This document shows, piece after piece, positions 23,541 to 48,872 of a DNA stretch of 64,000 nucleotides (positions within the stretch are counted from its first letter, which is position 1; each line of letters opens with the position of its first letter). The translations under genes and the position numbers were made by a program. The notes below the pieces were generated by a model. The model was not told the DNA's origin. It made no database searches and saw nothing but the letters and a program-made list of their open reading frames with translations. This DNA is from Geodermatophilus nigrescens (GTDB lineage Bacteria; Actinomycetota; Actinomycetes; Mycobacteriales; Geodermatophilaceae), in assembly GCF_900129495.1 (NCBI RefSeq), contig NZ_FQVX01000002.1, forward strand, positions 1,054,001-1,118,000. Reading direction: 5' to 3'.

Positions 23541-23647
23541 GTACACCCCCGTGGACTCGGTTCCCGACGGAGGGTGACAGGGAGGTCCGACACGGTGACG
23601 CACCCGGGCCCCGTGTCGCCGTCCGGACACCGCGTGCCCGAGGCGGC

Positions 23648-30747: not shown

Positions 30748-30748
30748 G

Positions 30749-32671
30749 TCAGACCGAGGCCGGCAGGCCGCCGAGGTGCGTCAGCAGGTCGAGCTTCGGC
30801 TCCTCGGGATCCAGGGGGACGATCAGCCGGCGGTCCAGGAAGCGGTTGCCTCGCTGGCAGCTCGTCTCGGAGGCGAAGGTGCAGGCGTGGCAGGCCGCGC
30901 CGTGCAGGGAGTCCTCGGTCTCGCTGGGGCGGTAGTCGCCGCAGAGTGGGTCGCTGGAGCAACGCCGAGCATTGCTGAAGGCGGCGCGCAACAGCCGGCC
31001 GAGCTCGGCCGGCTGGGCGAGACGCACCAGACCACCGAGCGTTCCCTCGCTGTCGCTGGCGGCCGTGTACAGCAGGATCCCCGCCTCGTCGCGCCCCTCA
31101 CGCGTCGTGCCGTAGATGCGCTCGGTGATGCTGGCGCTGCTGTAGCCGCACTCCAGGGCGATCTCGCGGATGAGCAGGTGGCTGAGGGTGTGCAGAAGCA
31201 GGTACCGGTCGCCGGGCCAGTAGTCGTCGTGCGGACCGTCCAGAGCGCGGTTGACGCGCCACTGGCGGTGCGCCCTGCGGAGGTTGGCCATGTGCTGGCT
31301 CGCCTCAGCGACGGCCTCCCATGCCTGCAGCGTGCCCGTGTCGAGCTGCAGGAAGATCCCTTCGCCGCGGGTGACGGCCGCGGGGACCCAGGTCGGCTTG
31401 CCACTGCGCGTCATGGGGGCGCGCTTGACGTTGTCGCCGTCGACCTCCCCGTACTCGGGGGCGTCGATGCGGGTGAAACCGAGCAGCGCCTTCGTCTCCC
31501 GTAGCCGCGTCACCGCGACGACGCGAGTCAGCAGCGCCTCCCAGCCTGGGGGAACGTGACCGACGATCCGGGCCTCGTAGTCGGCGTCGCCCTTCTTGGC
31601 ACTGCCCGGGTCGACGAGGGCGTGGTACTCGCGGGCGGTGAGGTCCTCGGGCTCCGCGGGGACGTCGTCCTGACGCTTGGCGATCTCGCTCCACACGTCG
31701 TCCAGGTCCAGGTCCCTGAACGGCCTCAGGTCGTCCGCGTACTTGACCGCGGAGCCGAGCTCAGCACGGTCGGCGACGCCCGCGAGCTTCGGCCAGTGCT
31801 TGGTCACGAGCTCGCTCAGGACGTTGCCCTGATCCGGGATGTAGAGCGCACGGGCCAGCACGCTGAACCACTGGTTGCTGGCACCCAGCACCATGGCCCG
31901 GACCGTCTTGCCGCAGCCCTCATCCGCGAATTTGCCGAGGTGTGGGTGCCGGCCACGGCACAGCGGCAGGACCTCGTTCCACCACTCAGAGTGGTGCTTG
32001 AGGGCGTCGCGCATGGTGCGCTTGGCGCCGCAGGAGCAGTAGATGCTGATCGCCGAGCCGGCGTTGAGGCCGGGGTCGTGGAACTCGAGTTTGCCGTCGA
32101 CGCCCTTGCTGCAGTCCTTACCGCGGTGGACGTACTCGTTGTAGGGGAACTCGTCGAGGTGGCCGTCCTTGCACGCGAGCACGAAGCGAGCCGGGATCGC
32201 GCTGGGCTTGACCTTCGACTGCCTGGCCTGCGGGCAGTTTTCGTGGACAAACCGCGCCTCGTCCGGCTTGTACGGGTTGTTGTTGCGATAGAGGAATGCG
32301 CCGCTGCTGCCGTCGCCGGCCAGCGGGTGCAGCAGGCTGCACCGGCTGCAGCGCATCCACCGCGGGAAGGGGGTGACAGGCACACCGACGCGCGCGTGGT
32401 CACCGGTGGGCTTCTCCCCCGGTTTCCGCTCGAGGAACGGCGCCGGCTTCAATGCCTCGACCTGCCGCCCGAGGACCGCTCGCACGTTCCGGAGCAACCG
32501 CGGCTCGGTCAGGTCGGTGAGCTGGCTCTTGTTGTGGTCCCAGTAGTCGAGCCCGCGGACGATCACGCTCATGTTGGGCAGGTCGACGAGCGCCCCGACG
32601 CCACCGGTGAACAGGAGGGCGTTGGGTCGCTCGGTGCCGACCCGGATCATCTGCTTGTCGTCGGTGCTCAC
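30749..32671 (-). CDS. drmB: DISARM protein DrmB (DUF1998 family)
   Basis: A 640-aa protein starting GTG 32671 inside the drmA stop (GTGA). It has several paired cysteines likely to bind zinc: MRCSRCSLLHPL, CKDGHLDEFP, IYCSCGAKRTM and, near the C-terminus, ACHACTFASETSC. The C-terminal block (YLLLHTLSHLLIREIALECGYSSASITERIYG) is the DUF1998 signature. DrmB forms a complex with the helicase DrmA; published work describes DrmAB as a DNA-sensing core activated by 5' overhang DNA. Length and position match class 1 operons. Confidence 0.92.
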   Translation of the reverse strand: MSTDDKQMIRVGTERPNALLFTGGVGALVDLPNMSVIVRGLDYWDHNKSQLTDLTEPRLLRNVRAVLGRQVEALKPAPFLERKPGEKPTGDHARVGVPVTPFPRWMRCSRCSLLHPLAGDGSSGAFLYRNNNPYKPDEARFVHENCPQARQSKVKPSAIPARFVLACKDGHLDEFPYNEYVHRGKDCSKGVDGKLEFHDPGLNAGSAISIYCSCGAKRTMRDALKHHSEWWNEVLPLCRGRHPHLGKFADEGCGKTVRAMVLGASNQWFSVLARALYIPDQGNVLSELVTKHWPKLAGVADRAELGSAVKYADDLRPFRDLDLDDVWSEIAKRQDDVPAEPEDLTAREYHALVDPGSAKKGDADYEARIVGHVPPGWEALLTRVVAVTRLRETKALLGFTRIDAPEYGEVDGDNVKRAPMTRSGKPTWVPAAVTRGEGIFLQLDTGTLQAWEAVAEASQHMANLRRAHRQWRVNRALDGPHDDYWPGDRYLLLHTLSHLLIREIALECGYSSASITERIYGTTREGRDEAGILLYTAASDSEGTLGGLVRLAQPAELGRLLRAAFSNARRCSSDPLCGDYRPSETEDSLHGAACHACTFASETSCQRGNRFLDRRLIVPLDPEEPKLDLLTHLGGLPASV

Positions 32672-35600
32672 AGAGCCGGCTCCCCGACAGGAGCAGCGGC
32701 GACGAGGGGCCGAGCGGCCACCTGCCCCACCTCGTCGAGCCCACCCTTGGCACTCAGCAGCACGTCGTCGTCCTCGTCCTCATCGTCGTCCCTTGGCTCA
32801 TCGGTGGCGGGCTTCTCGGCCTTGTCCTGCGGTGGGCCGTACGACCAACCGGGGCTGCCGGCGATCTCCGGTGCCGGGACGTCGACGATGAGGTTGATCT
32901 CCGGCTCCACCTCGCGCAGTGACCAACCGACGCTGAACTCGTCCCACCTCGTCGGGCTGGACACCAGCAGCGGGTGCTGGGTGTCGCCCTGCTTGCGGTA
33001 TGTCAGGCCACCCGCCTCCAGCGTCTTGCGGCGGTACACCCACTCGTCGAGCAGCGTGTTCGCCTGCCGGCGCACACGGACGCCGACCGCCGGGTCACCG
33101 GTGACGTACTCGGCGCGGCGCGCCACCACCTCGACGGCGTGGGCGACGTCTGCCGCGGTCCGGTGATCGGGCACCTTGTGCGCTCCGCCCTCGGACTCGA
33201 ACTCGGGACGCAGGTGACGGACCAGCGCGACGAGGACGGCCGCCAGACCCCGGTCGAGCGCCCGGTCGGCGAAGGGGGTCACCGACAGCGCCTCGACCTT
33301 CGCGTACGCGGTCTCGTGGAAGTGCGCGAACGTCTCGAAGTGCGCCAGATCCCGTGGCCGGGCCCAGTTGTAAATAACCGTCACCAGCCCCGGCCGCTTG
33401 GGGTCTCGGCCGACGCGGGACGAGGCCTGGATGTACTCGGCGCTGTTCTTCGGCTGCCCGGTGACGACCATCAGGCCGAGCCGGGCGACGTCCACACCGA
33501 CCTGGAGCATGCTGGTCGCGAGCAGCACGTCGATCGGCCGCTCCGAGAACGCCCGGGCACCGACGGCGGCGGCGTAGGCCTCCTCCGCGGCCTTCTTGGC
33601 CTTCCCGGTCGCCTCCCTGCGGGCCTTGGCCAGCGCCACGACGTTCTGGTGAGCAGCGGTGCTGTCGAGAGCGGTGACGAACTCGTTGGCCGCGGACGAC
33701 AACGCCAAGGCGATGTCCGCGGAGTTGATCCGGCTGGTCAGCTCGGTGAGGACCAGCGGGGTCGAGCGGTTGGACAGCCCCCGGCGGCTCAATCGCCGGA
33801 CACGGCGCGTGATGTCGTCCTCGACCATCCGGCGCATCCCGGCGAGCTCCACCGTGCTGCTGAAGTAGTCGACGAGGGTCATGTACGGATCGGCCGGGTT
33901 CTTGCCGTTCCCGTCGTGCTTGTCGAACTCGGTCTGCGCAGCCCCCAGCAGGATCTGAGCGACCCGGATCTGGACCTGCTTGACCCGCACCCCGTGCGCG
34001 CACACACCGACGTACCGCCGGCCGGGCCGCTCGTCACTGACCGGGATCTGCTCAGAGAAGAATGTGTCCCCGGCGTCGAACAGCGGCGGCGGGAACACCG
34101 CGGTGTCGCGGGCAAAAAGAGCGTGTACCTGGCTGTCCGCGCGACGCACCGTTGCGGTCGAGGCCACGACCTTGGGGCGGGTCCGGACGCCGTTGACGGT
34201 CCAGGTAGCAAGCTCGTCGACGACGGTCTCGTACAGCCCCACCATCGTCCCCAGCGCACCGGAGATCAGGTGCAGCTCGTCCTGGATGATGAGGTCCGGC
34301 GGCCGAAGCGCCGTGCACTCCCGGGGATGCGCGGTCGGCCACTCCTTCTTGGCCGGGTGAACGCTCTTGCAGCCCACCTTGTCGGCCATGTCCGGGTGCC
34401 GGTATCCGTGCCGTTCACAGCGGCTACGGACCCGACCGAACAGCAGGGCGGTCTGCCCGTTGAGGGGGAGCTGGGCGAACTTGTCGACCGTGCCGATGAC
34501 CAGCGTGGGCGCCAGCCGGTAGACCTCCTCGTCGACGGTGACGACCGGCAGGCCCTCGCGGTACTGGGCGCTCTGCTTCCTGCCGAAGGCGCACAGCCCG
34601 TCCGGGTCGGCGCAGTAGAGCAGGACCCGGCGCTGGTCGTCGTCGCACTCGGCGTTCTTCGCCAAGATCGGCAGCGCGCACCACGGGCAGGTCACCAGCT
34701 GCACCGGGTTGCCCTGCGCGCTCGACCCGAGCTTGTCCTTGGCCGCCTCGACGGCTTCCTTGGCCTGGTCGTACCAGTTCGGCGAGACGCCGGAGCCGAC
34801 CCAGAGGCCGATCCGGAAGGGCTCGTCGCCCCAGGGATTGACGAAGTCCGGCTCAGTCTTGGCGCGGGCAGCGGCGTCGCGACGGCGCTTCTCCGCCGCG
34901 CAGACGAGCGCCGCGGCGCGCTGGAACTGCTGGGCCGTCAGCAGCCGCAACGTGTAGCGCATAAGAACGGCGACGCCGGCGCCGCCGTCCCGCGCATCAG
35001 CGCCATCCCCGACGACTCCCTGCAGCCGCCGGATGGCGAAGGTGAAGGCGGTCAGACCGAGGTAGGCCTCGGTCTTGCCACCGCCGGTCGGGAAGAACAG
35101 CAGGTCGAGCAAGCCGTTGCCCTCATCGGCGCCAGGAAGGCTCCGCTCCACATGGGCAGGATCGACCAGCGACGGCAGGTTCAGCAGAACGAACGCCAGC
35201 TGGAACGGCCGCCACGAGCGCTGCTCAGGGCGGTCGGTCTCCTTGAGGAGCTCACCGATCGGCTGCTCAGGGCTCGTCCGGAGGGCGGCAACCTCGGTCC
35301 GCTGCCGCTGATCGGCCATGACGAGGTTGGCGAACTGCCACGCCTGCCATGCCTGCGCACCCCGCGGGGAGTCCTCGCCCAGGAGGTCGAGTCCTGCCTG
35401 CATGCGCGCCGCGATCTTCCGCGCGGCCGTGAGGTTCGTCTTCGCCGGCTGCTGATGCCGCGCCAGCGTCGGGTCCTTCTCGATTCGCTCAGCCTGCTGC
35501 TCGAGCCACGTCGCGTAGCCGCTCGCCAGAGGGGCGAGCGAGCGGAGCACCTCGGCCTTGTCGGCGGTCCCGAGCCAGCGCATGTCGAGCTGGAGTCCGG

Positions 35601-36543
35601 CGAGGAGCGGCTGCTTGGACGGGTCCGGCGCGACGGTCTGCGGGATGTCGTACGTGGGGAGCGCCGTCGAGGACAGCCGCCAGGCCCGGTCCTCGCCGTC
35701 TCGACGCTGTACGACCGGGGCGCAGTTGCGGCCGACGGCGAACTGCAGCGCGCCGCGGTACAGCATGGTGAGTGCCGCGACTTCAGGGTCAGTCGCGGTG
35801 ACCGGCTCGCCGTCTGCACCGACGTCGCTCGTGTCGCCGGCGACGTCGTGCGTGTCGTCGCTGTGCGGCAGGAACACGGCCGCGTGACCGTCCAGGGCAG
35901 TGACGGCCAGGCGGACCTGGAAGAGCTTCGCGGCGTCGCGCCTGTCCTTCGGCTCCGGCTGCCCGTTCACCAACGAGACGTCGACGAACCTGCACTCACC
36001 GACGAGGCGAGTACGCCAGCGCACCACAACGCCCATCGGGGCGCCCGGCAGTGGAGCAGTGTCGTCCGGCACCGTCAGGTCGATCTCGGTCTTCGAGGCC
36101 TCGGGGCGGCGTACCCAGGCAAGGCGCTGCTCCGGCCCGTCCTGCGTGTCGATGTCGACCCTTTCCTGCTCATAACGACCCCACGCTGCCTCGACGGGCA
36201 GCCGCGTGGTGGTCTTCGCGACGCGGAAGGACAGGCCCAGGGACGCGGGTGCCATGGAGCCGGCCGCCGCGGCGGCGGCCGCCTCCCCTGCCCCTTCTCC
36301 GGTGCCGTCGTCGCTCGCGGTGACGTCAGTCAGTCCGGCGTCGAGGACGCTGCCCCGCGGCGCGAGGACCCCGAGGATGTACCGCTCCCCCGGCGTCGAG
36401 CCCTGCGGCAGCACCTCGTGCGCTTCGTCGTCCCACGGACCCACTAGGTCCTTGCCGAGTAAGCGCTCGATCTCCGAACGTACCGACGCAGACGTCGCCA
36501 CAACCTCCTGCTCCTCAGATGCAATCTGACGCACCGCACTCAT
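32668..36543 (-). CDS. drmA: DISARM helicase DrmA
   Basis: A 1291-aa protein; ATG 36543 overlaps the drmMI stop (ATGA) and its own stop overlaps drmB. Walker A LLFFPTGGGKTEAYLGL lies near residue 485, and the DExH-type motif LIIQDELHLISGAL near 755. VVASTATVRRA fits motif III, and LATSMLQVGVDVARLGLMVV...QASSRVGRD fits motifs V-VI. A cysteine cluster between them (TCPWCALPILAKNAECD...CADPDGLC) probably binds zinc. DrmA is the DNA-translocating helicase of the DISARM core. The C-terminal 40 residues are acidic and low-complexity (DEPRDDDEDEDDDV). Confidence 0.93.
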   Translation of the reverse strand: MSAVRQIASEEQEVVATSASVRSEIERLLGKDLVGPWDDEAHEVLPQGSTPGERYILGVLAPRGSVLDAGLTDVTASDDGTGEGAGEAAAAAAAGSMAPASLGLSFRVAKTTTRLPVEAAWGRYEQERVDIDTQDGPEQRLAWVRRPEASKTEIDLTVPDDTAPLPGAPMGVVVRWRTRLVGECRFVDVSLVNGQPEPKDRRDAAKLFQVRLAVTALDGHAAVFLPHSDDTHDVAGDTSDVGADGEPVTATDPEVAALTMLYRGALQFAVGRNCAPVVQRRDGEDRAWRLSSTALPTYDIPQTVAPDPSKQPLLAGLQLDMRWLGTADKAEVLRSLAPLASGYATWLEQQAERIEKDPTLARHQQPAKTNLTAARKIAARMQAGLDLLGEDSPRGAQAWQAWQFANLVMADQRQRTEVAALRTSPEQPIGELLKETDRPEQRSWRPFQLAFVLLNLPSLVDPAHVERSLPGADEGNGLLDLLFFPTGGGKTEAYLGLTAFTFAIRRLQGVVGDGADARDGGAGVAVLMRYTLRLLTAQQFQRAAALVCAAEKRRRDAAARAKTEPDFVNPWGDEPFRIGLWVGSGVSPNWYDQAKEAVEAAKDKLGSSAQGNPVQLVTCPWCALPILAKNAECDDDQRRVLLYCADPDGLCAFGRKQSAQYREGLPVVTVDEEVYRLAPTLVIGTVDKFAQLPLNGQTALLFGRVRSRCERHGYRHPDMADKVGCKSVHPAKKEWPTAHPRECTALRPPDLIIQDELHLISGALGTMVGLYETVVDELATWTVNGVRTRPKVVASTATVRRADSQVHALFARDTAVFPPPLFDAGDTFFSEQIPVSDERPGRRYVGVCAHGVRVKQVQIRVAQILLGAAQTEFDKHDGNGKNPADPYMTLVDYFSSTVELAGMRRMVEDDITRRVRRLSRRGLSNRSTPLVLTELTSRINSADIALALSSAANEFVTALDSTAAHQNVVALAKARREATGKAKKAAEEAYAAAVGARAFSERPIDVLLATSMLQVGVDVARLGLMVVTGQPKNSAEYIQASSRVGRDPKRPGLVTVIYNWARPRDLAHFETFAHFHETAYAKVEALSVTPFADRALDRGLAAVLVALVRHLRPEFESEGGAHKVPDHRTAADVAHAVEVVARRAEYVTGDPAVGVRVRRQANTLLDEWVYRRKTLEAGGLTYRKQGDTQHPLLVSSPTRWDEFSVGWSLREVEPEINLIVDVPAPEIAGSPGWSYGPPQDKAEKPATDEPRDDDEDEDDDVLLSAKGGLDEVGQVAARPLVAAAPVGEPAL

Positions 36544-39500
36544 GCGCCATCACCGAACTGCATCTGGCCGAGCCCGGCGACCGCCGTCGGTCGCTGACGT
36601 CTGGGAGTCTCCGTTAATAAGGCTCGCTGTTCGAGGTGAAGCCGGTACATATGCTGAACGGCTACCTCCCTGCTAGCGGTATCCCATCCGAAGCGCGGCC
36701 CAACATCGATGACAGTGGAAGCGCTCGAAAGGTCCGGCAAATCGTTCTCCTCGGCAATACGACGATCAAGCACACCGCGAAGCCGCCGACAGCGGTTGAG
36801 CGGTGGAGCATCGATGTTGGAATGGAAATTGTTCCAGAAGTCGGTGAGCCCCTTCCCACTCCTCGCCGCCGCACGCACGGCCTCTTCCCAGTCTTGAAGC
36901 CAGGTGCCAGCCCAGTCATCAGACAAGCGCAATTTGGGCAATGTGTGAATAGCCCCGGTGACCGCGAGGTTGATTCTCGTCTCGCGCCGACCCGAGAAAC
37001 GCCACACCCAGGACTCGAACCACTGCGAATGCATGAACGCGAAAAGCCAATCACCATGATCCGCGATCAGCCTCACGCCATTGTTCGCCAGCCATGTCGC
37101 CGGCACGCGTGCTGCGATCGCGTATTTCGAGACAGCTGGCATGGCGATATAGGTTGGAGCGATTGCGCCGAGTTGCTGCCGCAGTGCGTAGCGAGTTCGC
37201 ACCATCTGCCACCATCGATCAATGAGCCCGGGGTAGGACTTCAGCGCGTCCGGCGATCGCTGCGGCCGAACGACCTCGTGCAAGAATCGCTCGGTTAGCG
37301 GACGGCCCGCACAGACTGCGTGAAGAGATTGATCCCCGGCATAAAAGCAGTAGCGCCTTGGATGGAGAACCAGCGAACCAGCGATATCATCAGCAGTGAG
37401 ATATGGAACCCATAAGTCAGGGGCTTCATCACGCAAGGCTGGAAGCTGCGAATCGGACGCGTCAACCAAGAAGCTTTCGCCCTTGCCGTTGTGTGACCCT
37501 TCGAATGCGAAGAGCCAACTGAGCGGTTCTGGCGTCAGCGATTCGACCTCTTCGGACAGTGAGGCAGGGATCCTATCAACATTACGGCCACCAAGTCGCC
37601 GGGAAACGAATACTGCAGCACGGGTTAGCCACACAAGGCTCACATGAATACCAACACTGGAGGTCGGCCAGGGAATCTCGGGTTCGGCCGCAAATATCTC
37701 CAAGCCGTCAGACGTGAGGGCTTCATATGTATGCGGACGGGCTTGAGGCTCGCGGAGCGAGGTTGTCAAAATAAGGCCAACGGAGCCCTGTTCCCCGAGG
37801 ATTGTGCAGGCGCGACGCAGAAAGAGCGCAGCCAAATCAATCTTGCCAATCGACCGCGCTGCCAGCAGTCGCGCAGCAAGTGCTTGAAAGTCAGGGCCAA
37901 AAGCAGCCCTCCAGTGCCGATTCCCAAGGAAGGGAGGATTGCCGACGATGGCATCAAATCCGCTACGACCGTCCGTGAATACCTCGGGGAACAACAGAGG
38001 GAAATGGGCTGGCCGATTCTGAGCTCCAGTTGTGCCGCCAAGTACGGCCACGACCGATTCTCGCAGCTTTTCATCACCATAGTTCGAGCCGTCATTGGCA
38101 TCATTTGCCAACATCGCAACTTTCAGAAAGTCGCTTTCCGACGCACCGGCCACGACCGCGCCAGATAGCGCGTCGGCTATCAGCGCCAGACGCCTCGTGA
38201 GCTGTTCACTGCGATGCAGGAGGCGCTTCTTGTACTCAGCGTCTCGAGCGTCATGCAGATCGATTTCCGCGATCTGCCATCGCAGTTCACTTGCGGCCTT
38301 CATAAGCTCGTCGGTCTTAGACGTGTAGAGGTCGAGGGCGTTCTCGTGGAGAGCGCGCCCCTTCTTAGGATCAAAGTGAAGGTCGCGGAGCTGGTCAGGG
38401 CTAGTGATACCGAGCAGGCTGTCCCCAATTGCGAGTCGATCGTCGAGGAAGCTGAAGGGCCGGCGAGGGTCGAGCGTCACCAGCCAGAGGCTGAGCTTGG
38501 CCATCTCGACGGCCATGGGGTTGATATCGACGCCGTAGATACAGTGATCGATGACTTCTCGACGTGCGTCGAGAAGCTCCTGCTCCTCAAGCGCCCGCGC
38601 ACCGAACGACACTGTCGCGGGCTCGTCCGCGTCCGGCACCTTGGACTGAGAGCCGTGCTGGCGACGAGCCTCGACGAGCCGGTTGGCGAGGTAGCGAGTG
38701 GCGGCGACGAGGAACGCACCGCTGCCAGCGGCGATGTCACAAATTCTTAGGTCGAGGATCTCCTTCGGGGTGCGCAGCACCCAGGCGCTCTTGTCTTCTG
38801 TGTCCAGCGGCCCCGGCTTGTAGACGAGGCCTTCGAGAGTCGTCTCGACGACCCGCTCGGCGAGGAACCGCGGCGTGTAAATGGCGCCTGTGTTGGCGCG
38901 GGCGCTGCTGTCGGTGAGGTAGAGGCTGCCCGGCGGGTAGACCACTGGGAGATCGCGCGGGTCCATCCGGAGGAGCCGACAGTAGGGCATGACGCGTGCG
39001 GTGGCAGTGTCGTCGTTGCCGCAGGCCTCGCGGACCAGCCGGGCGAAGCGCTGCGCGTCGTCCCCGGTCGGCGAGGTGAGGGCCTTCAGGATGCTCGCCT
39101 TACTGCGGTTGCCGCCCGCGTTCTTGATCTGGTCGACGAGCCAGGCGGCGAGGGCATCGTCGCCCTTGGCCTGCTGGACCTCCAAGTCGGTCAGGTATAT
39201 CTCCGGGCCGTTCTTACGGAGGTCCTTGTCGCTGACGGCAATGCTGACGACCCAGTCCTCGGCGGTGCGGGCGTCCTGGTCGAGCAGACCCTCGTAGACG
39301 TAGCCGATTTGCTCGACGTCGAGACTGCGATAGGAGACTCGGCGACGTTCCTTGGCAAACTGCAGCGTCTGCAGTGCGTCGAGGGCACGCAGCAGGGTGC
39401 GGTCGTCGATCGCTGGGACGCGGTTTCTGCCCAGCGGCTCCGTGGCACTGGCTCGGCCTTCCAGCCACGGAAACCGGTCGGGGTCGAACAGGCTGCCGCC

Positions 39501-40613
39501 GTACGCCGGCAGGATGAGCTGCTCGTGGCGGGCACCGCGGTGAACGCCACGAAACAATGACAGCAGCCGATACCAGCCGGTCGCCGTGCGCTCGAGGGCA
39601 TCCTCACCGTGATCGGTGGCGCGCTCGCGAAGGCTCTCGGCCAGGGTGGTGACGGCGTAGCCGCCCGCGTAGGTGTCGTCGTCGAGCGGGAGCAGGCCGC
39701 GCTCCTCGGCGTAGAGGAGGAACACCAGGCGCATCAGGACGGTGACTGACGCCTGGTACACCTCGGCGGGTCCAACGTTGCCAGGCAGCAAGCGCGCGCC
39801 GTGCTCGGCGAGGTGTGTCGCGTCGAGCCGGCCGAGGGTGGCCACGAGCATCTCGACGACAGCCTGGGACTGCTCGGCGAGGCGCTCAGTGACCTCCTCC
39901 TGCCGAGCCAGGCTCGCCGTGAGCAGGGCGGGCAGAGTCTGATCCGCGGCAACCCCGAGGAACCGGGCTCGGGTGAGCAGCGCGACGAAGGCGCGCAGGG
40001 TCTGCGGCTCCTCCAGCCACGCATGCCGGGTCCACGTGGCGGTGCTGACGGCACCGCCGTCGGAGACGCTGACAAGCGTCCACGTGTCCCCATTGGTGAC
40101 GAGACCGAGAGGCACGCCACGCACGCGCAGCGCGTGCGCGAGCCGGTCAGCCGGGCCAGCTGTCCACGTGCCGCCACCCACTGGGGCCCGGCCGGTCGTC
40201 GCGGTCTTCGGCGGGAGCACGATGCCGAGGAGCAGGGCGGCTCCCGGCGTCACGACGCCGGTGTCGTCCTGGGCCTGCATCGCGAACGTGATGTCGACCC
40301 TGGTTTGGTGCTCGGGGACGGCAACGGCGAAAGCGGCGGCATCCGGGCCCCAGGCCAGGTTGTGCCGCCAGTCGAGGGTGTCCACGAGGATGTGGCGGAT
40401 GAACCCGTCACGGGCGCCGGGGTTCGCGTCGTAGAGCGAGTTGCTCGTACGCAGCGCGTCCATGCGCGCCTGGTCGAGGGCAGGCAGCCCGTCGGGCCAC
40501 GTGTCGGTGACGACGGGGGCGGCGAGAAACGGACCGTCGATGTCGAGGATCTGCAGCCAGTCAGTGCTGCTGGGCCTGCGGCCGCGACGAGTCCGGTGGG
40601 TGGAGTTGCTCAT
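36540..40613 (-). CDS. drmMI: DISARM class 1 adenine methyltransferase DrmMI
   Basis: A 1357-aa protein; ATG 40613 overlaps the drmD stop (ATGA) and its stop overlaps drmA. The amino-methyltransferase motifs are clear: SAM-binding ICDIAAGSGAFLVAATRYLAN (near residue 625), VDINPMAVEMAKLSLWL, and catalytic FDAIVGNPPFLG (NPPF near 890). The NPPF type implies N6-adenine methylation, which in DISARM marks host DNA as self. The order and size resemble BREX PglX and Eco57I-type enzymes, but the neighbouring drm genes fix the assignment. The region 36600-38300, encoding the C-terminal target-recognition part, is visibly AT-richer than the rest. Confidence 0.9.
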   Translation of the reverse strand: MSNSTHRTRRGRRPSSTDWLQILDIDGPFLAAPVVTDTWPDGLPALDQARMDALRTSNSLYDANPGARDGFIRHILVDTLDWRHNLAWGPDAAAFAVAVPEHQTRVDITFAMQAQDDTGVVTPGAALLLGIVLPPKTATTGRAPVGGGTWTAGPADRLAHALRVRGVPLGLVTNGDTWTLVSVSDGGAVSTATWTRHAWLEEPQTLRAFVALLTRARFLGVAADQTLPALLTASLARQEEVTERLAEQSQAVVEMLVATLGRLDATHLAEHGARLLPGNVGPAEVYQASVTVLMRLVFLLYAEERGLLPLDDDTYAGGYAVTTLAESLRERATDHGEDALERTATGWYRLLSLFRGVHRGARHEQLILPAYGGSLFDPDRFPWLEGRASATEPLGRNRVPAIDDRTLLRALDALQTLQFAKERRRVSYRSLDVEQIGYVYEGLLDQDARTAEDWVVSIAVSDKDLRKNGPEIYLTDLEVQQAKGDDALAAWLVDQIKNAGGNRSKASILKALTSPTGDDAQRFARLVREACGNDDTATARVMPYCRLLRMDPRDLPVVYPPGSLYLTDSSARANTGAIYTPRFLAERVVETTLEGLVYKPGPLDTEDKSAWVLRTPKEILDLRICDIAAGSGAFLVAATRYLANRLVEARRQHGSQSKVPDADEPATVSFGARALEEQELLDARREVIDHCIYGVDINPMAVEMAKLSLWLVTLDPRRPFSFLDDRLAIGDSLLGITSPDQLRDLHFDPKKGRALHENALDLYTSKTDELMKAASELRWQIAEIDLHDARDAEYKKRLLHRSEQLTRRLALIADALSGAVVAGASESDFLKVAMLANDANDGSNYGDEKLRESVVAVLGGTTGAQNRPAHFPLLFPEVFTDGRSGFDAIVGNPPFLGNRHWRAAFGPDFQALAARLLAARSIGKIDLAALFLRRACTILGEQGSVGLILTTSLREPQARPHTYEALTSDGLEIFAAEPEIPWPTSSVGIHVSLVWLTRAAVFVSRRLGGRNVDRIPASLSEEVESLTPEPLSWLFAFEGSHNGKGESFLVDASDSQLPALRDEAPDLWVPYLTADDIAGSLVLHPRRYCFYAGDQSLHAVCAGRPLTERFLHEVVRPQRSPDALKSYPGLIDRWWQMVRTRYALRQQLGAIAPTYIAMPAVSKYAIAARVPATWLANNGVRLIADHGDWLFAFMHSQWFESWVWRFSGRRETRINLAVTGAIHTLPKLRLSDDWAGTWLQDWEEAVRAAARSGKGLTDFWNNFHSNIDAPPLNRCRRLRGVLDRRIAEENDLPDLSSASTVIDVGPRFGWDTASREVAVQHMYRLHLEQRALLTETPRRQRPTAVAGLGQMQFGDGA

Positions 40614-43600
40614 CGGTCGAGTCCTGCCGGGACGAGGTGGACAACGGCGGCCGGGAAGGTCAGGAACTCGACGCTCGCGTACCGGCCTCGGATACGGGCG
40701 AGCTCCTCGGCGCGCTCCACAGGCAGCCGGTCGAGGCGTTCCTGCCACGCAGCGCGGTCGGCGGTGAGCTGCTGACGCTCGTCGGGCTCGAGGTCGGCGA
40801 ACGAGAGCTGCTGGGGAGCGCTGTCGACGTTGATGGCCCCCCTGAGGGCTTCAGCGAAGGCGTCGAGCAGCTGGGTGGTTCGCTTGACCTCGTCGTCGCG
40901 GCGCCGGCCGAGGGCTCGTGTGAGGCTCTCCTGGCGTTCCTTGGCGCGGGCCTCGATGGCGAGGCCGAGATTGCCGCTCACCCTGTCCCAGGCCTCGACG
41001 AGCGCCTGCCGAGCACCGGGGCCGGCGGCGATGGGATGCGCGTCGGGTCCGAGGGTGGCGTCCAGGATCCGCGCGAGTTCGGTGACGCCCAGGCGGGCGA
41101 AGGACGTGCCGCGCAGCGTTCCGCCGACCGGGACGAGCTCCTCGTGCAGGCGCTTGCCGTCAGCGCCGATGACGACGAGGCGGCTGTACGCGGCCAGCAC
41201 CTCCTCGCTCAGCGCCGGGTCCTCAACGCGGATGCTGGCCGCACGGGCGAGGCTGCTCTGCCCGCCGTCTTGGCTGGCGCCCCAGACCTCAGCGCGCAGA
41301 AGCCGGGTGGCCATCGCGACGAGCGGGTGGTTGAGGTGCGCGAGGACGACGTCGTCGCGCTTGGCGGCGTAGCCCGGATCGAACGAGAGCGGCCGCTGGC
41401 CGTAGTCACGGTCCGCGAGGTCGGCGACGGTGCGCGCCCAGGAGCCGGTCAGGGTGCCGACGTGGAAGACGGTGTGGCCGTCCCGGACCTCGGGAGTCAG
41501 GTCGGGCTGGCGCCCGAGGGCGAGCCCGGTGCGGACGACGCGCTCGACGTCCGCGGAAGTGCAGTGCAGCTCGCGGCGGCTGTTGTCGAGGGTCGCCGCC
41601 AGCCGAGCCGTCTCCTCGCGCAACTGACGCTCGACCTTGAGAGCGGGGTCGGCCTTCGCCTTGGCGAGGGTCCGGTCGATGTCGAAGTTGCGTGCGGGCC
41701 GGCCCAGCATGCGCCGCTCGACAGCGTCGCTGATGACCGGGTTGACGCTGCCGAGGTCCTCACGGGCAGCGGCAATCTTGCGGGCGATGATGGTGAGGAA
41801 CTGCAGGTCGCCCTGCAGGCTTTCCTTCGAGGCGGTCTCCCAGTCGCTCCCGGCGAAGTGGTAGACGAGCGGCGTCCTAATCTGCCCGTACCGGTCGATC
41901 CGGCCGGCGCGCTGCTCCAACCGGTTGGGGTTGAAAGGCAGGTCGTAGTTGACCAGTCGGTGGCAGTGGTTCTGAAGGTCAACACCTTCGCTGGCAGTGT
42001 CTGTGGCCAGGATGATCCGGATCGGGTGTAGGTCTGGCGGGCGCTGGAACGCCGTCATGACGGTGGCGCGCTTGTCGTCGTCCATCCCGCCGTAGAGCAG
42101 CTCAACGCGACCGGGGCCAGCGAGGCCGTGCTTCTCCAGCAGCTCCAACAGCCAGCGCTGAGTGTCCCGGTACTCGGTGAAGACGACGACGCGCTCGTCG
42201 TTCCACTGCCCTGAGTCGTCCAGGCACGTCTCGCGCAGGAACGCGAGTAGCGCCTGGGCCTTGGCGTCGGTCTCGTGGCCGTGCTGCTCCGCCCAGGTGC
42301 AAAGCTCGTCGAGCAGCCCGGCCTCGTCGGCGTCCACCTTGCCGGCGACCTGCTGTGCCTTGGTCAGGACCACGAGCTCGGCCTCGTCGACTGCGTCGTC
42401 GTCGGCATAGTCGGCGTCCAGCAGCTGCTGCCGGTCCTCGTCGAGTCCATGGGCGAAGCGCTCGTCGACCTCGATGTCATAGCCCTCGGGCGCCCAGGCG
42501 AGGTCGATCTTGACGCTGTTGTCGCGGACGGCGAGCACCGTGCTGGCGAAGGCCGCGGGACTGCTGAAGAAGCGCTTCTTGAGCAGCAGTCCCAGCAGGT
42601 CGACACCAGCCTTGCGGGACTTGTTCTTGGCCTTTGCGGAGCGAGCGCGGGTGTAGCGGGCCAGCAGGTCCTGGACCTCCAGCTCGCCCTTCGGGTAGGT
42701 GACGGTGATGTCCATCGCCTGCCGCGCGGGGTAGCGCGGCGTGCCGTCGGCGTTGGTGATCTCGGTCTTCAGCCGTCGGATGAGGATCTGCTTGAGCGCG
42801 GCCGGGTCCGGGACCACCCCACGAGCGAATCGCTGCGGGTCGAGCATCGCGAGGAGGGCCGTCCACGACTCGAGGTAGCCGTTGTGCGGCGTCGCTGACA
42901 TGAACAACCGGTGTTCGGCGTGGTCCGCGAGCCGCTTGACGATCCGGGTTTGCTGACTGTCGACGGCGTACTGTCCCTTGCCCGGCGGCGCGACGTGGTG
43001 TGCCTCGTCGACGATGAGCAGGTCGAGCGGGCGGGTGCGGCTCAGGCCGGACTGAGTGAGGACCTCGTCCAGCAGCCGGCCGGCCTTCGGGCCACGCAGC
43101 CAGGCCAGGCTGACGATCGTGTAGGGGTAGACCTTGAACGGGTTGGCGTGCAGTCCGCGGTCACGGCGTACCTGGCTCAAGGTCTCGCTGTTGACCACCG
43201 CGAAGTCGAGGCCGAAGCGGTTCAGCATCTCGTCGTGCCACTTGTCGGTCAGGTGGGCGGGGCAGACGACCATGACCCGACGGACACGGCTGCGGAGCAG
43301 GAGCTCCTGAACGACCAGGCCAGCTTCGATCGTCTTGCCCAGCCCGACGTCGTCCGCGACGAGCAGGTTGACGCGAGGCAGGCTGAGCGCACGGATGGCC
43401 GGTTCGAGCTGGTAGTCCTCGACCGAGATGCCAGCACGGAACGGTGCCTGCAGGACCGTCGTCTCGGCGCTCGTGACGGCGCCCCAGCGCAGGGCGTCCA
43501 GGAAGGCGCCGAGCCTGGCAGGGTCGTCAAACCGGCCCTCCGAGACGTCCGGCAGGGTGGCGCGCTCCAGGACACGGCGTCCGGCCTCGAGCTCCCACAG

Positions 43601-43810
43601 GACCCGGAGTTCCTCGCCCAGACCGTCGTCCTCGACGCTGCTCAGAGTGACGAACGTGGCGCCTTCCCCCACGCTCGCTGCCGTGACGTCCAGGGGGATC
43701 CGGGACTCCTGGACATCAACGACGACCCAGTTGCGTCCGCGGACGGTCACGAGCTGGCCGACGGCAGGCAGGTCGGACGCCACAGACGTCCGGCGCAGCA
43801 GCGAGGTCAC
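40610..43810 (-). CDS. drmD: DISARM class 1 SNF2-like helicase DrmD
   Basis: A 1066-aa protein; GTG 43810 with GGAG 8 nt upstream. SNF2/SF2 motifs occur in order: NLLVADDVGLGKTIEAGLVVQELL (Walker A, near 155), LLIVDEAHHVAPPG (DEAH, near 268), RLFMSATPHNG (motif III), IILATDTASEGVDLQNHCHRLVNYDLPFNPNRLEQRAGRIDRYGQ (motifs V-VI). DrmD defines class 1 DISARM together with drmMI. It is the first gene of a five-gene, translationally coupled operon. Its position suggests that the promoter for the whole system lies in the 43811-44177 gap. Confidence 0.9.
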   Translation of the reverse strand: MTSLLRRTSVASDLPAVGQLVTVRGRNWVVVDVQESRIPLDVTAASVGEGATFVTLSSVEDDGLGEELRVLWELEAGRRVLERATLPDVSEGRFDDPARLGAFLDALRWGAVTSAETTVLQAPFRAGISVEDYQLEPAIRALSLPRVNLLVADDVGLGKTIEAGLVVQELLLRSRVRRVMVVCPAHLTDKWHDEMLNRFGLDFAVVNSETLSQVRRDRGLHANPFKVYPYTIVSLAWLRGPKAGRLLDEVLTQSGLSRTRPLDLLIVDEAHHVAPPGKGQYAVDSQQTRIVKRLADHAEHRLFMSATPHNGYLESWTALLAMLDPQRFARGVVPDPAALKQILIRRLKTEITNADGTPRYPARQAMDITVTYPKGELEVQDLLARYTRARSAKAKNKSRKAGVDLLGLLLKKRFFSSPAAFASTVLAVRDNSVKIDLAWAPEGYDIEVDERFAHGLDEDRQQLLDADYADDDAVDEAELVVLTKAQQVAGKVDADEAGLLDELCTWAEQHGHETDAKAQALLAFLRETCLDDSGQWNDERVVVFTEYRDTQRWLLELLEKHGLAGPGRVELLYGGMDDDKRATVMTAFQRPPDLHPIRIILATDTASEGVDLQNHCHRLVNYDLPFNPNRLEQRAGRIDRYGQIRTPLVYHFAGSDWETASKESLQGDLQFLTIIARKIAAAREDLGSVNPVISDAVERRMLGRPARNFDIDRTLAKAKADPALKVERQLREETARLAATLDNSRRELHCTSADVERVVRTGLALGRQPDLTPEVRDGHTVFHVGTLTGSWARTVADLADRDYGQRPLSFDPGYAAKRDDVVLAHLNHPLVAMATRLLRAEVWGASQDGGQSSLARAASIRVEDPALSEEVLAAYSRLVVIGADGKRLHEELVPVGGTLRGTSFARLGVTELARILDATLGPDAHPIAAGPGARQALVEAWDRVSGNLGLAIEARAKERQESLTRALGRRRDDEVKRTTQLLDAFAEALRGAINVDSAPQQLSFADLEPDERQQLTADRAAWQERLDRLPVERAEELARIRGRYASVEFLTFPAAVVHLVPAGLDR

Positions 43811-44177: not shown

Positions 44178-44927
44178 TCACTTCTTCGCGATCGAGAAGA
44201 CGACGTCGCCACGACCGCTAGGACAGATGCCACACCGGATACAGGCCGAGCCTTTCTCGGAGATCAATGGGATCCGGTGCCCATTCTCCGGACACGGGTA
44301 ACGCTTGCCGGGCAGGTCGGCCAAGTCCGCCCGGCCGCTGGCGAAGGTCTCAGCCAGATAGGCCCAGTGAACCCAGGAGTGTCGTTGCCGCGCGGCCTTG
44401 GCGGCCTCCAGGTTGTCGGGGTCGACTGAGAGGTAAACCGACAGGTTGGACAACCCGACGAGCGCCGGGAGGACGTCCAGGGCCGCGGGATCGAAGCTGC
44501 GGGTGTAAACCCAGAAATGGACATCCGGGTTGCTCCGGACCACATCCGCCCACGCCTGCGCGTAGTCCCAGGAGAAGAAGTCGCCGTCCCAGTGGATGCG
44601 GAAGTCCCTCGGGACGCTCGCTCCTCTGGCTTCGGCGCGCTCACAGTCGGCTCGGAAGTCGGCGATCATGTCGTTCAAGAGCTGGGCCATTCCTGCTCGA
44701 TCGAGCCACATCAGCTCGGCCAGGTTCGCGGTGAGCACTTCACGCAGGCCCTTGTACAGGTTCTCGAGCTTGCCGGCGTAGCAGACGCGCTGGCAGGTCT
44801 CCGTGGCTCCAGGACAGGAGTAGTCGCGTCCGGCCGGGAGGCCGAAACTGTTGGCGATCTTGGCTGTCTTGCCGTTCGGCGACGGCAGGTTGGTCACCTT
44901 GCGGTCCGCGGACCGCCTGAGGCTCAC
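44178..44927 (-). CDS. Gp88-like cysteine-rich protein
   Basis: A 249-aa protein; GTG 44927. The N-terminus has TNLPSPNGKTAKIANSFGLPAG followed by C38-x6-C45-x3-C49, and the C-terminus has YPCPENGHRIPL and C229-x2-C232-x2-C235-PSG. Between them lie RIHWDGDFFSWDYAQAW and a VHFWVYTRSFD strand. This pattern matches the phage-derived gene product 88 family, proteins of unknown function from mycobacteriophages and actinobacteria. The cysteine triplets could hold an iron-sulfur cluster. Its place beside DISARM suggests mobile-element or phage ancestry. Confidence 0.72.
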   Translation of the reverse strand: MSLRRSADRKVTNLPSPNGKTAKIANSFGLPAGRDYSCPGATETCQRVCYAGKLENLYKGLREVLTANLAELMWLDRAGMAQLLNDMIADFRADCERAEARGASVPRDFRIHWDGDFFSWDYAQAWADVVRSNPDVHFWVYTRSFDPAALDVLPALVGLSNLSVYLSVDPDNLEAAKAARQRHSWVHWAYLAETFASGRADLADLPGKRYPCPENGHRIPLISEKGSACIRCGICPSGRGDVVFSIAKK

Positions 44928-45314: not shown

Positions 45315-46802
45315 TCATACGCCACCCAGGTCGAGAACGAGCGTGAAGCCCCGGTCCTGCATCAACGCGTCGAATTCCGCCATCGAGGCGAACACCGGCG
45401 TCCCCAAGTACGTGTGCGTGAGGTCCGCCAGGTCGGCGAGGACGTCGTCCGGCCTGCCTATGCCCAGGGCTGTCTGGATCGCGTCCAGCCGAGGCAGCAC
45501 CAGGCGGCGGAAGCCCACGTCGTAGACCGCCAGAGCTGTCTCCACCTCGCGGAGCTCCTCTGCGGCAGCTGCCTGGATCTCCGCAGTGTGACGCAGCAGC
45601 GCCTCGTACTCGGCGTCCCACGCGGCCGATCTGTCGCGGGCCGTGACCGCCAGCCGCAGGCCCTGGACCAACATGACGGCTCCGTACTGGCCGACCACCC
45701 GGCCGATCAGCGCCCCCACAACCGGGACGGGGATAACCGACTGGCCCACCGCGGCACAAGCCAATCCGGCGAGGTCCTTGGTCAGGGTCTCCGCCGCCGC
45801 CCAAGCCGCAGCGTCGGCGGTCAGCCGACCCGTGGCGACGCCATGCGCGATGCCGGCCAGGTCGAACACGGCTCTACCCAGGACGTGGTCGAATCCGCCG
45901 TCGACCACGGCACCGACCCAGGAGCCGGCTCCTGCCTCCGCCGCGTGCTGCGCAGCGCTGGCAATGCCTTCGCTGAGACAGGCGACGGTTCCGGCCTTGA
46001 GCGCGCTCTGCGCCGCTCGGCGGGCCACCTCGGGCCAGGGGATGCCCTCGCGTGTTCCCGCCTGAACGTAGGAGGTCGCGACCTCAACCAGGCCGGTCGT
46101 GAGCCCGGCCGTCAGTGCTGCCGCACCGCCGGCGTGCGCGATGTCGCGCAGCTGTTGGGACCTAATCAACGACTGCAGGTATGCCTGCGGGTCACGCGCC
46201 GCACTTGCGACGTCGCCGGTGCCCACCGGGGTCGAGGAGACGTTCCCGCTGACGACCCGGTCGGTGAGCCGCTCGCGGACGTCCGCATACCGCGCATGGA
46301 GCTGTCCCTCGGGCATCGCGAGTCGCCGGTCGAGCAGGTCCTGAGTCTCGGTCAGGTGGTCCCTCGGTACCAGGAGCTGCATCTCCCCGTACTTGTCCGC
46401 GGTGAGTCCGTCCGTCGACGCCAGACGTCGCGCCGCTCCACTGACGACCTTCGCCTGCACCTCACTCAGCACTTCCCCCGAAGGGCCATGGACCCGGAGG
46501 TCAGCAGCAGCGTGCGGCTCGCCGAGCCACGTCGTGACGCGGAGCCGCGCTGCCTCGTTCTGAGCTACCGCCTTGAGGTTGTACGAGAGTTCGTGCATCC
46601 ACTCGAAGACGTGTCCCTGCCGTTGAGCCTGCCCCAGCGCTCCGAATCGCTCGGCCATGCGCGCTGCGACCTCGCGCTGTTGCAGCAGCAAGGCGAGCTG
46701 CCGCCGACCCACCTGAGTAGCCGCGTGAGCAGCGGCTCGAGCGGCTTCCTCCTGAACTGCTTCCGCGAGCGCTGGCCGACCCTCGAAAGGTGATCCGCTC
46801 AT
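45315..46802 (-). CDS. putative nuclease-like membrane protein, second gene of an unrecognised two-gene cassette
   Basis: A 495-aa protein; ATG 46802 overlaps the upstream stop (ATGA). The N-terminal 150 residues contain HVFEWMHE (E67, E71), ADLRV (D101) and LSEVQAKVV (E114, Q116, K118), a spacing that resembles a PD-(D/E)xK core. EMQLLVPRDHLTE follows. Residues about 225-395 carry several Gly/Ala-rich hydrophobic stretches (GGAAALTAGLTTGLVEVA, VIPVPVVGALIGRVVGQYG) suggesting membrane insertion. The remaining 100 residues are soluble and helical. No characterised family was recognised. Coupling to a glycine-zipper membrane protein, inside a defence island, suggests an anti-phage or toxin-like role; this is inference. 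Confidence 0.7.
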   Translation of the reverse strand: MSGSPFEGRPALAEAVQEEAARAAAHAATQVGRRQLALLLQQREVAARMAERFGALGQAQRQGHVFEWMHELSYNLKAVAQNEAARLRVTTWLGEPHAAADLRVHGPSGEVLSEVQAKVVSGAARRLASTDGLTADKYGEMQLLVPRDHLTETQDLLDRRLAMPEGQLHARYADVRERLTDRVVSGNVSSTPVGTGDVASAARDPQAYLQSLIRSQQLRDIAHAGGAAALTAGLTTGLVEVATSYVQAGTREGIPWPEVARRAAQSALKAGTVACLSEGIASAAQHAAEAGAGSWVGAVVDGGFDHVLGRAVFDLAGIAHGVATGRLTADAAAWAAAETLTKDLAGLACAAVGQSVIPVPVVGALIGRVVGQYGAVMLVQGLRLAVTARDRSAAWDAEYEALLRHTAEIQAAAAEELREVETALAVYDVGFRRLVLPRLDAIQTALGIGRPDDVLADLADLTHTYLGTPVFASMAEFDALMQDRGFTLVLDLGGV

Positions 46803-47725
46803 GCAGCCAGGCGGTCGGCGAGCTTGGTGGCGGCGGTGATGGTCCTGTCGGACATCGCCGTCACACGCCCGTCCTCGTCGACGATCGGGCAGGCAATGAC
46901 GGCGGCCATGGCCTGGGCCACACCCGCGAGTTCAGCCACGAGCGCCCGCTGCGCTGGCGTGTAGGCGGCGTAGTCATCGTTCGTGTCGATGAGCGCGGTG
47001 AGCTTCTTGAGCTGCGGACGCCCACAGGCGCCGAGCGCGCGGACCACCCGGCACGTGTCTTTGATGCGCTTGACGGCTGCGTCGACTTTCGCGACCTGGA
47101 CGGCCATCTCACTCTTGGCGACCTCCAGCTCCTGCTGGACCTTGACCTGCTGCTGGTAGGCCTCCTCGCCCTTCCACCACATGACGCCGTAGGCGATCAG
47201 GACCGCCGGCGCAGCCACCACGCCGGCGAGTACTGCGGTACCGCCCGCGACGCCGAGCCCGCCGGCCGCGAGGGATCCACCGCCGAGCCATGCGAGCGTC
47301 GCGCTCGTCGCCGCAGCTCCGCTCAACGCAGAGATGGCAGTTCCCGTCGAGGCAGCTGCCAGCGCGCCGACGGCAGCAAAGGTCAATCCCCCGGCCGCTG
47401 CCCCGGCGGCACTGCCGCCTGCCAGAGCAGCCAGTCCGTCCACGGCCTTGAAGCCGACGTCGCGCAGTTTGACGTCCATGGCCTTCAGCTCGGGCACCGC
47501 CGTGATGGTAGGGAGATCGCTGAGCTCGACGTTGCGCAGGCGGGCGAACTGGGCGGCGAACGGGCTGAGGTAGGTGTCGAACCCCTTCCTGTAGGCCGCG
47601 TCCAGCCTCATCTGGGCTCCGGCTGCCTGCTGCTCCGCCTCCTCCTTGGTGGCCAGAAGCTCCTCGTATGCCTTCTGGTTCTCCTCCGCGAGGCCCTTCG
47701 CGTCGAACATCGGAAACAGCCGCAC
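46799..47725 (-). CDS. glycine-zipper membrane protein, first gene of an unrecognised two-gene cassette
   Basis: A 308-aa protein. GTG 47725 is chosen because AGGAG lies upstream; an in-frame ATG at 47773 would add 16 unlikely residues. Residues 8-50 are a charged coiled coil (LAEENQKAYEELLATKEEAEQ). Residues about 98-182 are an unbroken Gly/Ala/Ser-rich hydrophobic block (LAGGSAAGAAAGGLTFAAVG, AGGLGVAGGTAVLAGVVAAP) able to form several glycine-zipper helices. A second coiled coil follows (YQQQVKVQQELEVAKSEMAVQVAKVDAA). The layout resembles pore-forming or membrane-deforming proteins. It overlaps the next gene by 4 nt, so the two are made together. Family unknown. Confidence 0.7.
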   Translation of the reverse strand: MRLFPMFDAKGLAEENQKAYEELLATKEEAEQQAAGAQMRLDAAYRKGFDTYLSPFAAQFARLRNVELSDLPTITAVPELKAMDVKLRDVGFKAVDGLAALAGGSAAGAAAGGLTFAAVGALAAASTGTAISALSGAAATSATLAWLGGGSLAAGGLGVAGGTAVLAGVVAAPAVLIAYGVMWWKGEEAYQQQVKVQQELEVAKSEMAVQVAKVDAAVKRIKDTCRVVRALGACGRPQLKKLTALIDTNDDYAAYTPAQRALVAELAGVAQAMAAVIACPIVDEDGRVTAMSDRTITAATKLADRLAA

Positions 47726-47789
47726 GGAGCACTCTCCTGTCGTCGGGGACCAGCAGACGCCAGAGGCTCGCATGGACGACCGACAACAG

Positions 47790-47817
47790 AGCGTAGGCGG
47801 ACCGTGTCGTAACGCAA
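47790..47817 (-). promoter_or_regulatory. candidate promoter of the two-gene cassette
   Basis: On the minus strand TTGCGT (47817-47812) and TACGCT (47795-47790) are separated by 16 nt, close to a housekeeping sigma factor promoter. It would give a leader of about 58 nt to the GTG at 47725. Confidence 0.42.
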
Positions 47818-47878
47818 TCGAGTGAGGGGCCCCGGGCGAGTCACAGCGCGGGGCCAGCTGGTCGTGCAGCCAACCGGG

Positions 47879-48805
47879 CTAGAGCCGTGTGAACACGCCG
47901 CCCCGGAGAACGATCACAGTGATATCGCACTCCGCAAGCAGCTCACGGAGGTCCGAGCTGGGGTCCTCAGGAAAGAGGACCGCCATGCTCGGGTTGCTCC
48001 CGATGTGGCGGCGATAGTCCAGGAGCTGGCCGATCGCAGTGCGGACGTCGTCGCGCCCTGCGCTGCCCTTCGCCTCGATGACGAGGTCGTCCACAGCGTC
48101 ATAGGCGTCGCACTCGATCGAGTCCCCGTCCGGCAAGCGAACACGCTGACGAGTGAGCGGGTGCGGATGCTGTCGCTCAAATGCCTGGAGCAGGCGCGCC
48201 TCGCGGAATGCCAGCTTCCGTTCCGTCGTCCCGACCTCGTAGTCGGTGTCTGAAGGGGGGAGGCCGACGCGCCTGCTGGTCACGACGACCTCGTCGGTTC
48301 TCGGGCGACTCGTGGATCCTGCTCCCGGGAAATGCCGTACGAGTGCGTCCCACTGCACATCGGTGAGCGATAAAGGATTGGCCGCCGCAGGCACACGCAG
48401 GATCAAGGCGTCGGCGAAGTCCGGGTCTGCAGCCAACTCGCTCTTGTAGATGGGCGACTCGAAAAAGTAGCCCTCGGTCGCGAGTTCGACGTCCCAGACG
48501 GGTCCCTCGGGTGGTGTCTCCCAGTAGCCGCCTCCGGCGTACCCCGGCCCCTGCGGTTGACCGACGACCTTGCCGAAGGCGTACACGCCGGCCTCTGGTC
48601 CGGTGACCCACAAGGCGAAGTCGTCACCGGGACCGATCTGGTCGATGCGCCGGCTGATCGTCCAGGAGTTGAGCTCGGTGTCCTCCTTCTCCCACCACTC
48701 CCATACGTTCCACACCTGCGGGTTGGACTTGAGGATCCAGTGCGATGGCAAGGAGCTCTCCCACTCTTCGGTGCCCGCTGTCGGGCCGGACGGAGGGATG
48801 TCCAA
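47879..48805 (-). CDS. EVE-domain protein fused to PD-(D/E)xK nuclease, putative modification-dependent restriction enzyme
   Basis: A 308-aa protein, TTG 48805 (start uncertain; the conserved part begins about 20 residues later). Residues about 20-150 form an EVE/PUA-like domain: HWILKSNPQVWNVWEWW, then SRRIDQIGPGDDFALWVTG and GVYAFGKVVG. EVE domains bind modified bases in DNA or RNA. After a linker, residues about 215-300 form a nuclease-like core: SIECDAYDAVDDLVIEAKGS (acidic residue, then E-A-K) followed by VRTAIGQLLDYRRHI, the usual helix with a conserved Gln. The fusion is a single-protein version of type IV restriction, likely cutting DNA with modified cytosines. The modification recognised cannot be read from sequence. 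Confidence 0.8.
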   Translation of the reverse strand: MDIPPSGPTAGTEEWESSLPSHWILKSNPQVWNVWEWWEKEDTELNSWTISRRIDQIGPGDDFALWVTGPEAGVYAFGKVVGQPQGPGYAGGGYWETPPEGPVWDVELATEGYFFESPIYKSELAADPDFADALILRVPAAANPLSLTDVQWDALVRHFPGAGSTSRPRTDEVVVTSRRVGLPPSDTDYEVGTTERKLAFREARLLQAFERQHPHPLTRQRVRLPDGDSIECDAYDAVDDLVIEAKGSAGRDDVRTAIGQLLDYRRHIGSNPSMAVLFPEDPSSDLRELLAECDITVIVLRGGVFTRL

Positions 48806-48872
48806 CCGTTCCGCCAGCAGTAGACGCTGATGCTGTGCGTCTGGCAGTACGCGTAGCGCGAGGCGCCCGCGT

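Follow-up and report, generated by a model that had tools for sequence, protein, structure and literature searches.

Introduction

SNIPE (PD-Lambda-1 in PADLOC) is a membrane-bound nuclease that associates with the tape measure protein and cleaves the DNA of phage lambda while it is being injected; without its transmembrane domain it is toxic (PMC13190303). The type VI secretion system (T6SS) DNase Tde1 carries a Gly zipper similar to tape-measure proteins and depends on this zipper for crossing target membranes (PMC10240207). Here, we analyzed two adjoining genes, A and B, in a 64,000-nucleotide (nt) stretch of the Geodermatophilus nigrescens genome (contig NZ_FQVX01000002.1, positions 1,054,001 to 1,118,000; hereafter the window). 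We show that B combines invariant nuclease-like residues with a hairpin sequence that recurs in phage tape measure proteins, and that the pair lies in defence islands. A and B may form a membrane-embedded defence module acting on DNA at entry.

A first-pass annotation of the window had presented the pair as an unrecognised cassette. This label no longer applies, because PADLOC-DB v2.0.0 already holds the candidate PDC-M09A/B, and both window proteins match it and show its two-gene pairing. Protein A matches PDLC04406 (2.3e-22) and PDLC04407 (9.8e-20), and protein B, encoded next to A, matches PDLC04409 (5.9e-9) over residues 312–419 only. PDC-M09 was matched by 26/26 rows of our first B alignment, the window included. 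The prefix PDC denotes a phage defence candidate (PMC12429752), and two other candidates, PDC-M63AB and PDC-S04, showed no activity (PMC12409345). No paper naming PDC-M09 was found in the literature searched. The titles and abstract openings of related literature, among the matches listed, contain no description of such a system, and a term search of the DefensePredictor paper (PMC13092281) found no mention of TerB, glycine or PDC. Whereas PDC-M09 stands as a database candidate only, we describe here a nuclease-like core, variants with TerB-like and CxxCxxCC genes, and a phage-type hairpin.

B Probably Carries a PD-(D/E)xK-type Nuclease Domain

Gene B (PDC-M09B-like; 45315..46802, minus strand) encodes a protein of 495 amino acids (aa). 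An E67/D101/E114-x-Q-x-K118 pattern resembling a PD-(D/E)xK nuclease had been proposed for it, and all of these residues were located as stated. E67 (codon 46602..46604, minus strand), D101 (46500..46502, minus strand), and Q116 and K118 (Q116-A-K118 codons, 46449..46457, minus strand) are invariant in 65/65 aligned B proteins from many phyla, but E114 is not conserved (G in 22, E in 15, Q in 10 and other residues in the rest of 72 rows). The loci were chosen by the patterns GHxFE.. or IPxPx..G, which inflates the conservation of P358, P360 and G363 and, in part, that of G63 and E67; D101, Q116, K118, Q354 and G367 lie outside the selection patterns.

The AlphaFold2 model of B has an alpha-beta-beta-beta-alpha-beta order of elements in a high-confidence N-terminal domain (residues 25–205; 46188..46730, minus strand), an order that matches the one expected of PD-(D/E)xK nucleases. 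Three of the 50 VIA-align matches listed were confined to this domain, namely BsaWI, BstEII and the Lamassu LmuA nuclease, which we take to be PD-(D/E)xK nucleases. B shares with them, in its predicted structure, the order of secondary-structure elements, and it has an invariant E, D and QxK, but it differs in having no sequence match at the profile level. Foldseek searches yielded nothing significant, and a Pfam scan of the 65 B rows found no family in more than 3 rows. The conserved residues and the predicted order of elements suggest that B probably carries a PD-(D/E)xK-type DNA nuclease domain, with predicted cleavage activity.

A and B Are Paired and Patchily Distributed

Both overlapping minus-strand open reading frames (ORFs) of the reported pair are present in the window. 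Gene A (PDC-M09A-like; 46799..47725, minus strand) is upstream of B, with a 4-bp ATGA overlap at 46799–46802 in the ORF listing of the window, and the reported end of the pair, 47725, is the GTG start of A. From this GTG A has 308 aa, and an alternative ORF (46799–47773) gives 324 aa from an upstream ATG. We favour the GTG because the A homologues have 308 aa and start with MRLFP or similar (43 aligned A rows), and because a putative ribosome-binding site, AGGAGA (47733..47738, minus strand), lies 7 nt upstream of it and is identical in the Geodermatophilus aquaeductus locus (L002). The ratios of nonsynonymous to synonymous substitution rates (dN/dS) between the window and L002 are 0.10 for A and 0.15 for B, so that both look like selected protein genes.

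An A-profile match lies beside B in 67/73 loci. No A match was found at L021, L063, L064, L069, L070 and L072; B is truncated at the start of the contig in L063 and ends near the contig end in L021. Gene A comes first in 31 loci and B in 35; the copy in L017 is broken. The 4-bp A/B overlap occurs in at least 12 loci, a lower bound since the longest ORF was taken for each gene. In the family to which the window belongs, A was found in 11/112 genomes and B in 3/112, which marks both as accessory, patchy content. The first-pass annotation had counted separate homologues against a joint system, and A homologues do occur without B.

The Module Lies in Defence Islands

The genes flanking the module (three on either side) were compared with those flanking an ABC transporter gene (likewise three on either side) in 20 genomes (PADLOC, E ≤ 1e-8). 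The module neighbours (120 genes) matched 187 PADLOC models and the control neighbours (119 genes from the same 20 genomes) matched 2; these are counts of models, which overlap in PADLOC, rather than of genes, and gene calling relied on a simple script, but the difference is large. The control was centred on the ABC transporter gene and not on a random place, and one control (L090) shares its contig with a module (L007). Among the matches listed, the neighbour models include PD-Lambda-1 (near the module in L004), PD-T4-6, Old, PtuA, WYL and RT_I-B, presumably a retron type. A survey of neighbourhoods had been recommended in the first-pass annotation, and the defence-island context is well supported.

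The Predicted Membrane Hairpin of B Recurs in Phage Tape Measure Proteins

The Gly/Ala-rich hydrophobic block noted earlier in B is real. B has uncharged stretches of 24 and 19 residues and a hydrophobic stretch at residues 343–387, within which lies the predicted membrane hairpin GQSVIPVPVVGALIG (with flanks, residues 344–373; 45684..45773, minus strand). Q354, P358, P360 and G367 of this segment are invariant in 65 rows.

The hairpin consensus GQxxIPxPxVGxxxG is common to B, to phage tape-measure proteins and to other large viral-contig proteins. When viral contigs were scanned with the B alignment, 7 loci were obtained, one of which (L111) encodes both A and B. Among the alignments listed, the similarity of L108, L110, L112 and L113 to B comprises the hairpin and part of the membrane region. 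PHROGs identified 4/6 non-L111 viral proteins (L109, L110, L112 and L114) as tail length tape measure proteins; the hairpin region of L113 matched models of tail-associated lysin and endolysin, and L108 had no PHROGs match.

A DNA pattern for GQxxIPxPxVG was found in 81 viral stretches. From 80 of these, 79 ORFs were read (none in L173), and the 81st (L195, with the motif in a 165-aa ORF) was left out of the viral ORF counts. Three of the 79 are members of the B family, namely L137, L167 (the L111 contig) and L139; L139 matches the B profile from position 182 onward and is adjoined by A and CxxCxxCC genes. The continuation [AG]-x-[VILM]-G, which was not selected for, follows in 75/76 remaining viral ORFs and in 58/65 B rows. 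Comparison of B with the phage segments (53 distinct) by hhalign gave a probability of 99.1%. Since the viral ORFs had been chosen by GQ..IPxPxVG, the 11 selected residues were masked, and the probability was still 86.5% (E 4.6e-6); the control, a Gly/Ala-rich segment of A, gave 0.6%. In the bacterial loci (1.47 Mb), the motif occurs in 61 ORFs at 61 loci, namely 55/73 B loci, where it is always in the B ORF, and the short B loci L075–L080. It was found in 0/20 control stretches.

The largest clusters of viral motif ORFs have 32 and 26 members, and the larger one includes phrog_973 tape measure proteins. In the smaller cluster, L162 and 25 other ORFs are mostly of 914–1055 aa (four are shorter) with the hairpin near residue 119–159; its representative, L162, had no match in the phages collection. 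Neither full B, the B hairpin nor the L111 hairpin matched that collection. The L110 hairpin matched 5 records at E ≤ 0.1 (two tape measure, two tail lysozyme and one unannotated) and 49 records at E ≤ 10, weakly and mostly with the name "hypothetical protein". Of two further cluster representatives, L164 matched the collection outside its hairpin, and L168 in its C-terminal part, with mixed names, among the matches listed. The phage tail tape measure proteins (phrog_973 and phrog_4211) thus share the GQxxIPxPxVGxxxG hairpin with B, but they are virion proteins, and in the alignments listed the similarity is confined to the membrane region of B, mostly to the hairpin.

A Is a Glycine-zipper Membrane-type Protein

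The description of the partner as a coiled-coil/glycine-zipper membrane-type protein was confirmed. In A, a Gly/Ala zipper lies between two coiled coils, and its residues 97–184 (308-aa numbering; 47174..47437, minus strand) form an uncharged stretch of 88 residues without D, E, K or R, which is strongly conserved in the A alignments. In the AlphaFold2 model of the 324-aa form (mean predicted local distance difference test score 79.3), long helices flank the zipper, and the zipper region itself is of low confidence. A Pfam scan of 43 A rows found no family in more than 5 rows. Kinship of A with Leo/dynamin proteins was considered and rejected (LeoBC 0.067, LeoA 0.33, neither significant).

A Proposed Mechanism and Its Alternatives

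From the invariant B residues, the A–B pairing, the dN/dS values, the patchy presence, the island context, the hairpin and the SNIPE precedent, we propose with moderate confidence that the two proteins constitute a defence module embedded in the membrane, in which the B nuclease acts on DNA at entry. Gly/Pro-rich hairpins would anchor the nuclease domain of B to the inner membrane, and A would be its membrane partner in a complex, probably with a scaffolding or regulatory role. In this position the nuclease would be kept off the chromosome and would meet foreign DNA on entry. By analogy with SNIPE, taken as a working model, phage DNA would be destroyed at the injection point, and the B hairpin may help the protein to find the injection channel or to assemble together with it. 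A bolder version, which we advance as speculation and consider rather unlikely, is that the B hairpin is a captured or convergent copy of the membrane-penetrating hairpin found in tape-measure and other injected phage proteins, and that B uses it to assemble into or recognise the injection channel, with the active site placed at the exit of the channel.

SNIPE is a membrane-tethered nuclease (PMC13190303), as proposed for B, but it is a single protein with GIY-YIG and DUF4041, whereas the domain of B is PD-(D/E)xK-like and A is encoded alongside. B has neither the GIY-YIG nor the DUF4041 of SNIPE (Pfam, E ≤ 1) and no PD-Lambda-1 match in PADLOC. Zorya and Kiwa, which the Discussion of the SNIPE paper treats (PMC13190303), likewise place defence at the membrane near phage entry, as we suggest for A–B, but neither A nor B matched a Zorya or Kiwa model in PADLOC (E ≤ 1).

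If the proposal is correct, (i) tethered entry-point nucleases would have arisen with at least two unrelated folds, GIY-YIG (SNIPE) and PD-(D/E)xK; (ii) a widespread database candidate without a mechanism would acquire one, and PDC-M09 would be tied to TerB-like and CxxCxxCC genes; (iii) the B membrane segment would be a direct clue to the way in which these nucleases are targeted to the site of injection; and (iv) if the hairpin targets the channel, phage escape would be hard without alteration of the phage's own channel.

The main rival is abortive infection, in which the B domain would sense or cut phage DNA and the Gly zipper of A would open a pore or depolarise the membrane, stopping the cell. 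ClyA-type pores do appear among the structural matches of A, but these matches are weak and fall short of significance, and a long helix tends to match a wide range of structures. Abortive infection would also leave the hairpin shared with phage proteins unused, and we consider it possible but unlikely.

The anatomy of the pair would fit equally well with a barrier to plasmid or conjugative DNA, that is, a membrane nuclease cutting any entering DNA rather than a phage defence. The PADLOC neighbour test has defence models only and does not separate the two. The resemblance of the hairpin points instead to phage proteins, and such a barrier seems to us improbable.

A further alternative concerns catalysis. 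The acid expected in (D/E)xK is Q in 67/67 ungapped of 72 B rows, as would be expected if the N-terminal domain bound DNA without cutting it and B were a sensor only. However, QxK variants occur in active nucleases of the PD-(D/E)xK superfamily, and the four active-site-like residues of B are invariant in 65 rows, and we consider a sensor-only role improbable. It is very improbable that the pair works as a toxin for export, in the manner of the T6SS DNase Tde1 (PMC10240207), despite the DNase-like domain, Gly zipper and tape-measure resemblance, since the context is that of defence islands, partner A is of membrane type with no sign of an immunity protein, and family scans of the nearest genes, which included no search aimed at secretion genes, gave no secretion-system match.

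Relatives and Variants of the Module

Beyond A and B, a gene matching a TerB-like profile is nearby in 25/73 B loci, and 31/73 have a nearby gene with a CxxCxxCC profile match. Pfam TerB scored above its cut-off in 3/10 TerB-like proteins tested (E < 0.1 in 9/10), and Pfam CxxCxxCC in 5/5 proteins tested. Neither gene was found at the actinobacterial loci surveyed, and no window ORF matches either profile. A four-gene form, in the order B, TerB-like, A, CxxCxxCC, was observed in Firmicutes, Spirochaetes and Synergistota (L022–L062; e.g., L029:8852-12308 and L056:8849-12283). Upstream of the main B of L029 there is a second, weaker pair of A and B matches (L029:6382-8723), which suggests that the module was duplicated there.

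In the family of the window, 8 A genes are in genomes without a B match, and 7 of these genes have a locus (L081–L087). A similar 143-aa gene is directly downstream of A in 5/7 of these loci (L081, L082, L083, L084 and L087), so that A can be seen as a module that combines with different partners; A and the 143-aa gene are perhaps another two-gene module. Two of the 143-aa proteins were tested against Pfam: L081 had no match, and L087 had a weak one, below threshold.

An apparent A–B fusion in Streptomyces diastatochromogenes (P0027/L017, one 671-aa ORF) was rejected. The reading frame of its matches shifts inside A and again inside B, as in a broken or mis-sequenced copy, and it was therefore not used as evidence for a complex. 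It formed one row of the first B alignment, which served as a search query, and was left out of the 65-row alignment. A tblastn search of plasmids gave no A or B match, although the BLAST low-complexity filter may hide A.

Window Neighbourhood and Upstream Region

The first-pass annotation had placed the pair between DISARM and an EVE-nuclease. On one side, a full DISARM set does adjoin the pair (29980–43810; PADLOC models drmD, drmMI, drmA, drmB and drmC), but a GP88-family gene (44178–44927) intervenes; on the other side, the EVE match of the neighbour (47834–48811) is below the Pfam cut-off (18.4 vs. 23 bits). At the DNA level, the pair, the GP88 gene and the outer flanks are 86–90% identical between L002 and the window, whereas the neighbouring DISARM proteins are only 36–43% identical. 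The EVE-like gene was rejected as a component, as L002 lacks it at the corresponding position, with ~75 bp between the matched flanks; the difference reflects a gain or a loss. Given the conserved pair, the divergent DISARM genes and the missing EVE-like gene, the pair appears to outlast the turnover of its neighbours. The GP88 gene is conserved in L002 but has no match in a third locus (L003), and was not taken as part of the module.

The string TTGCGT-16-TACGCT, proposed as a promoter of the pair, was located at 47817–47790. A sigma-70 scan found no promoter, and neither L002 nor L003 conserves the second hexamer, so the proposal was not retained. A 28-bp block upstream of A (47798..47825, minus strand), mostly conserved in L002 and less closely in L003, is a possible control element or regulatory site. 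Elsewhere in the window, positions 21894–23630 encode a protein matching NERD and UvrD-type helicase defence models.
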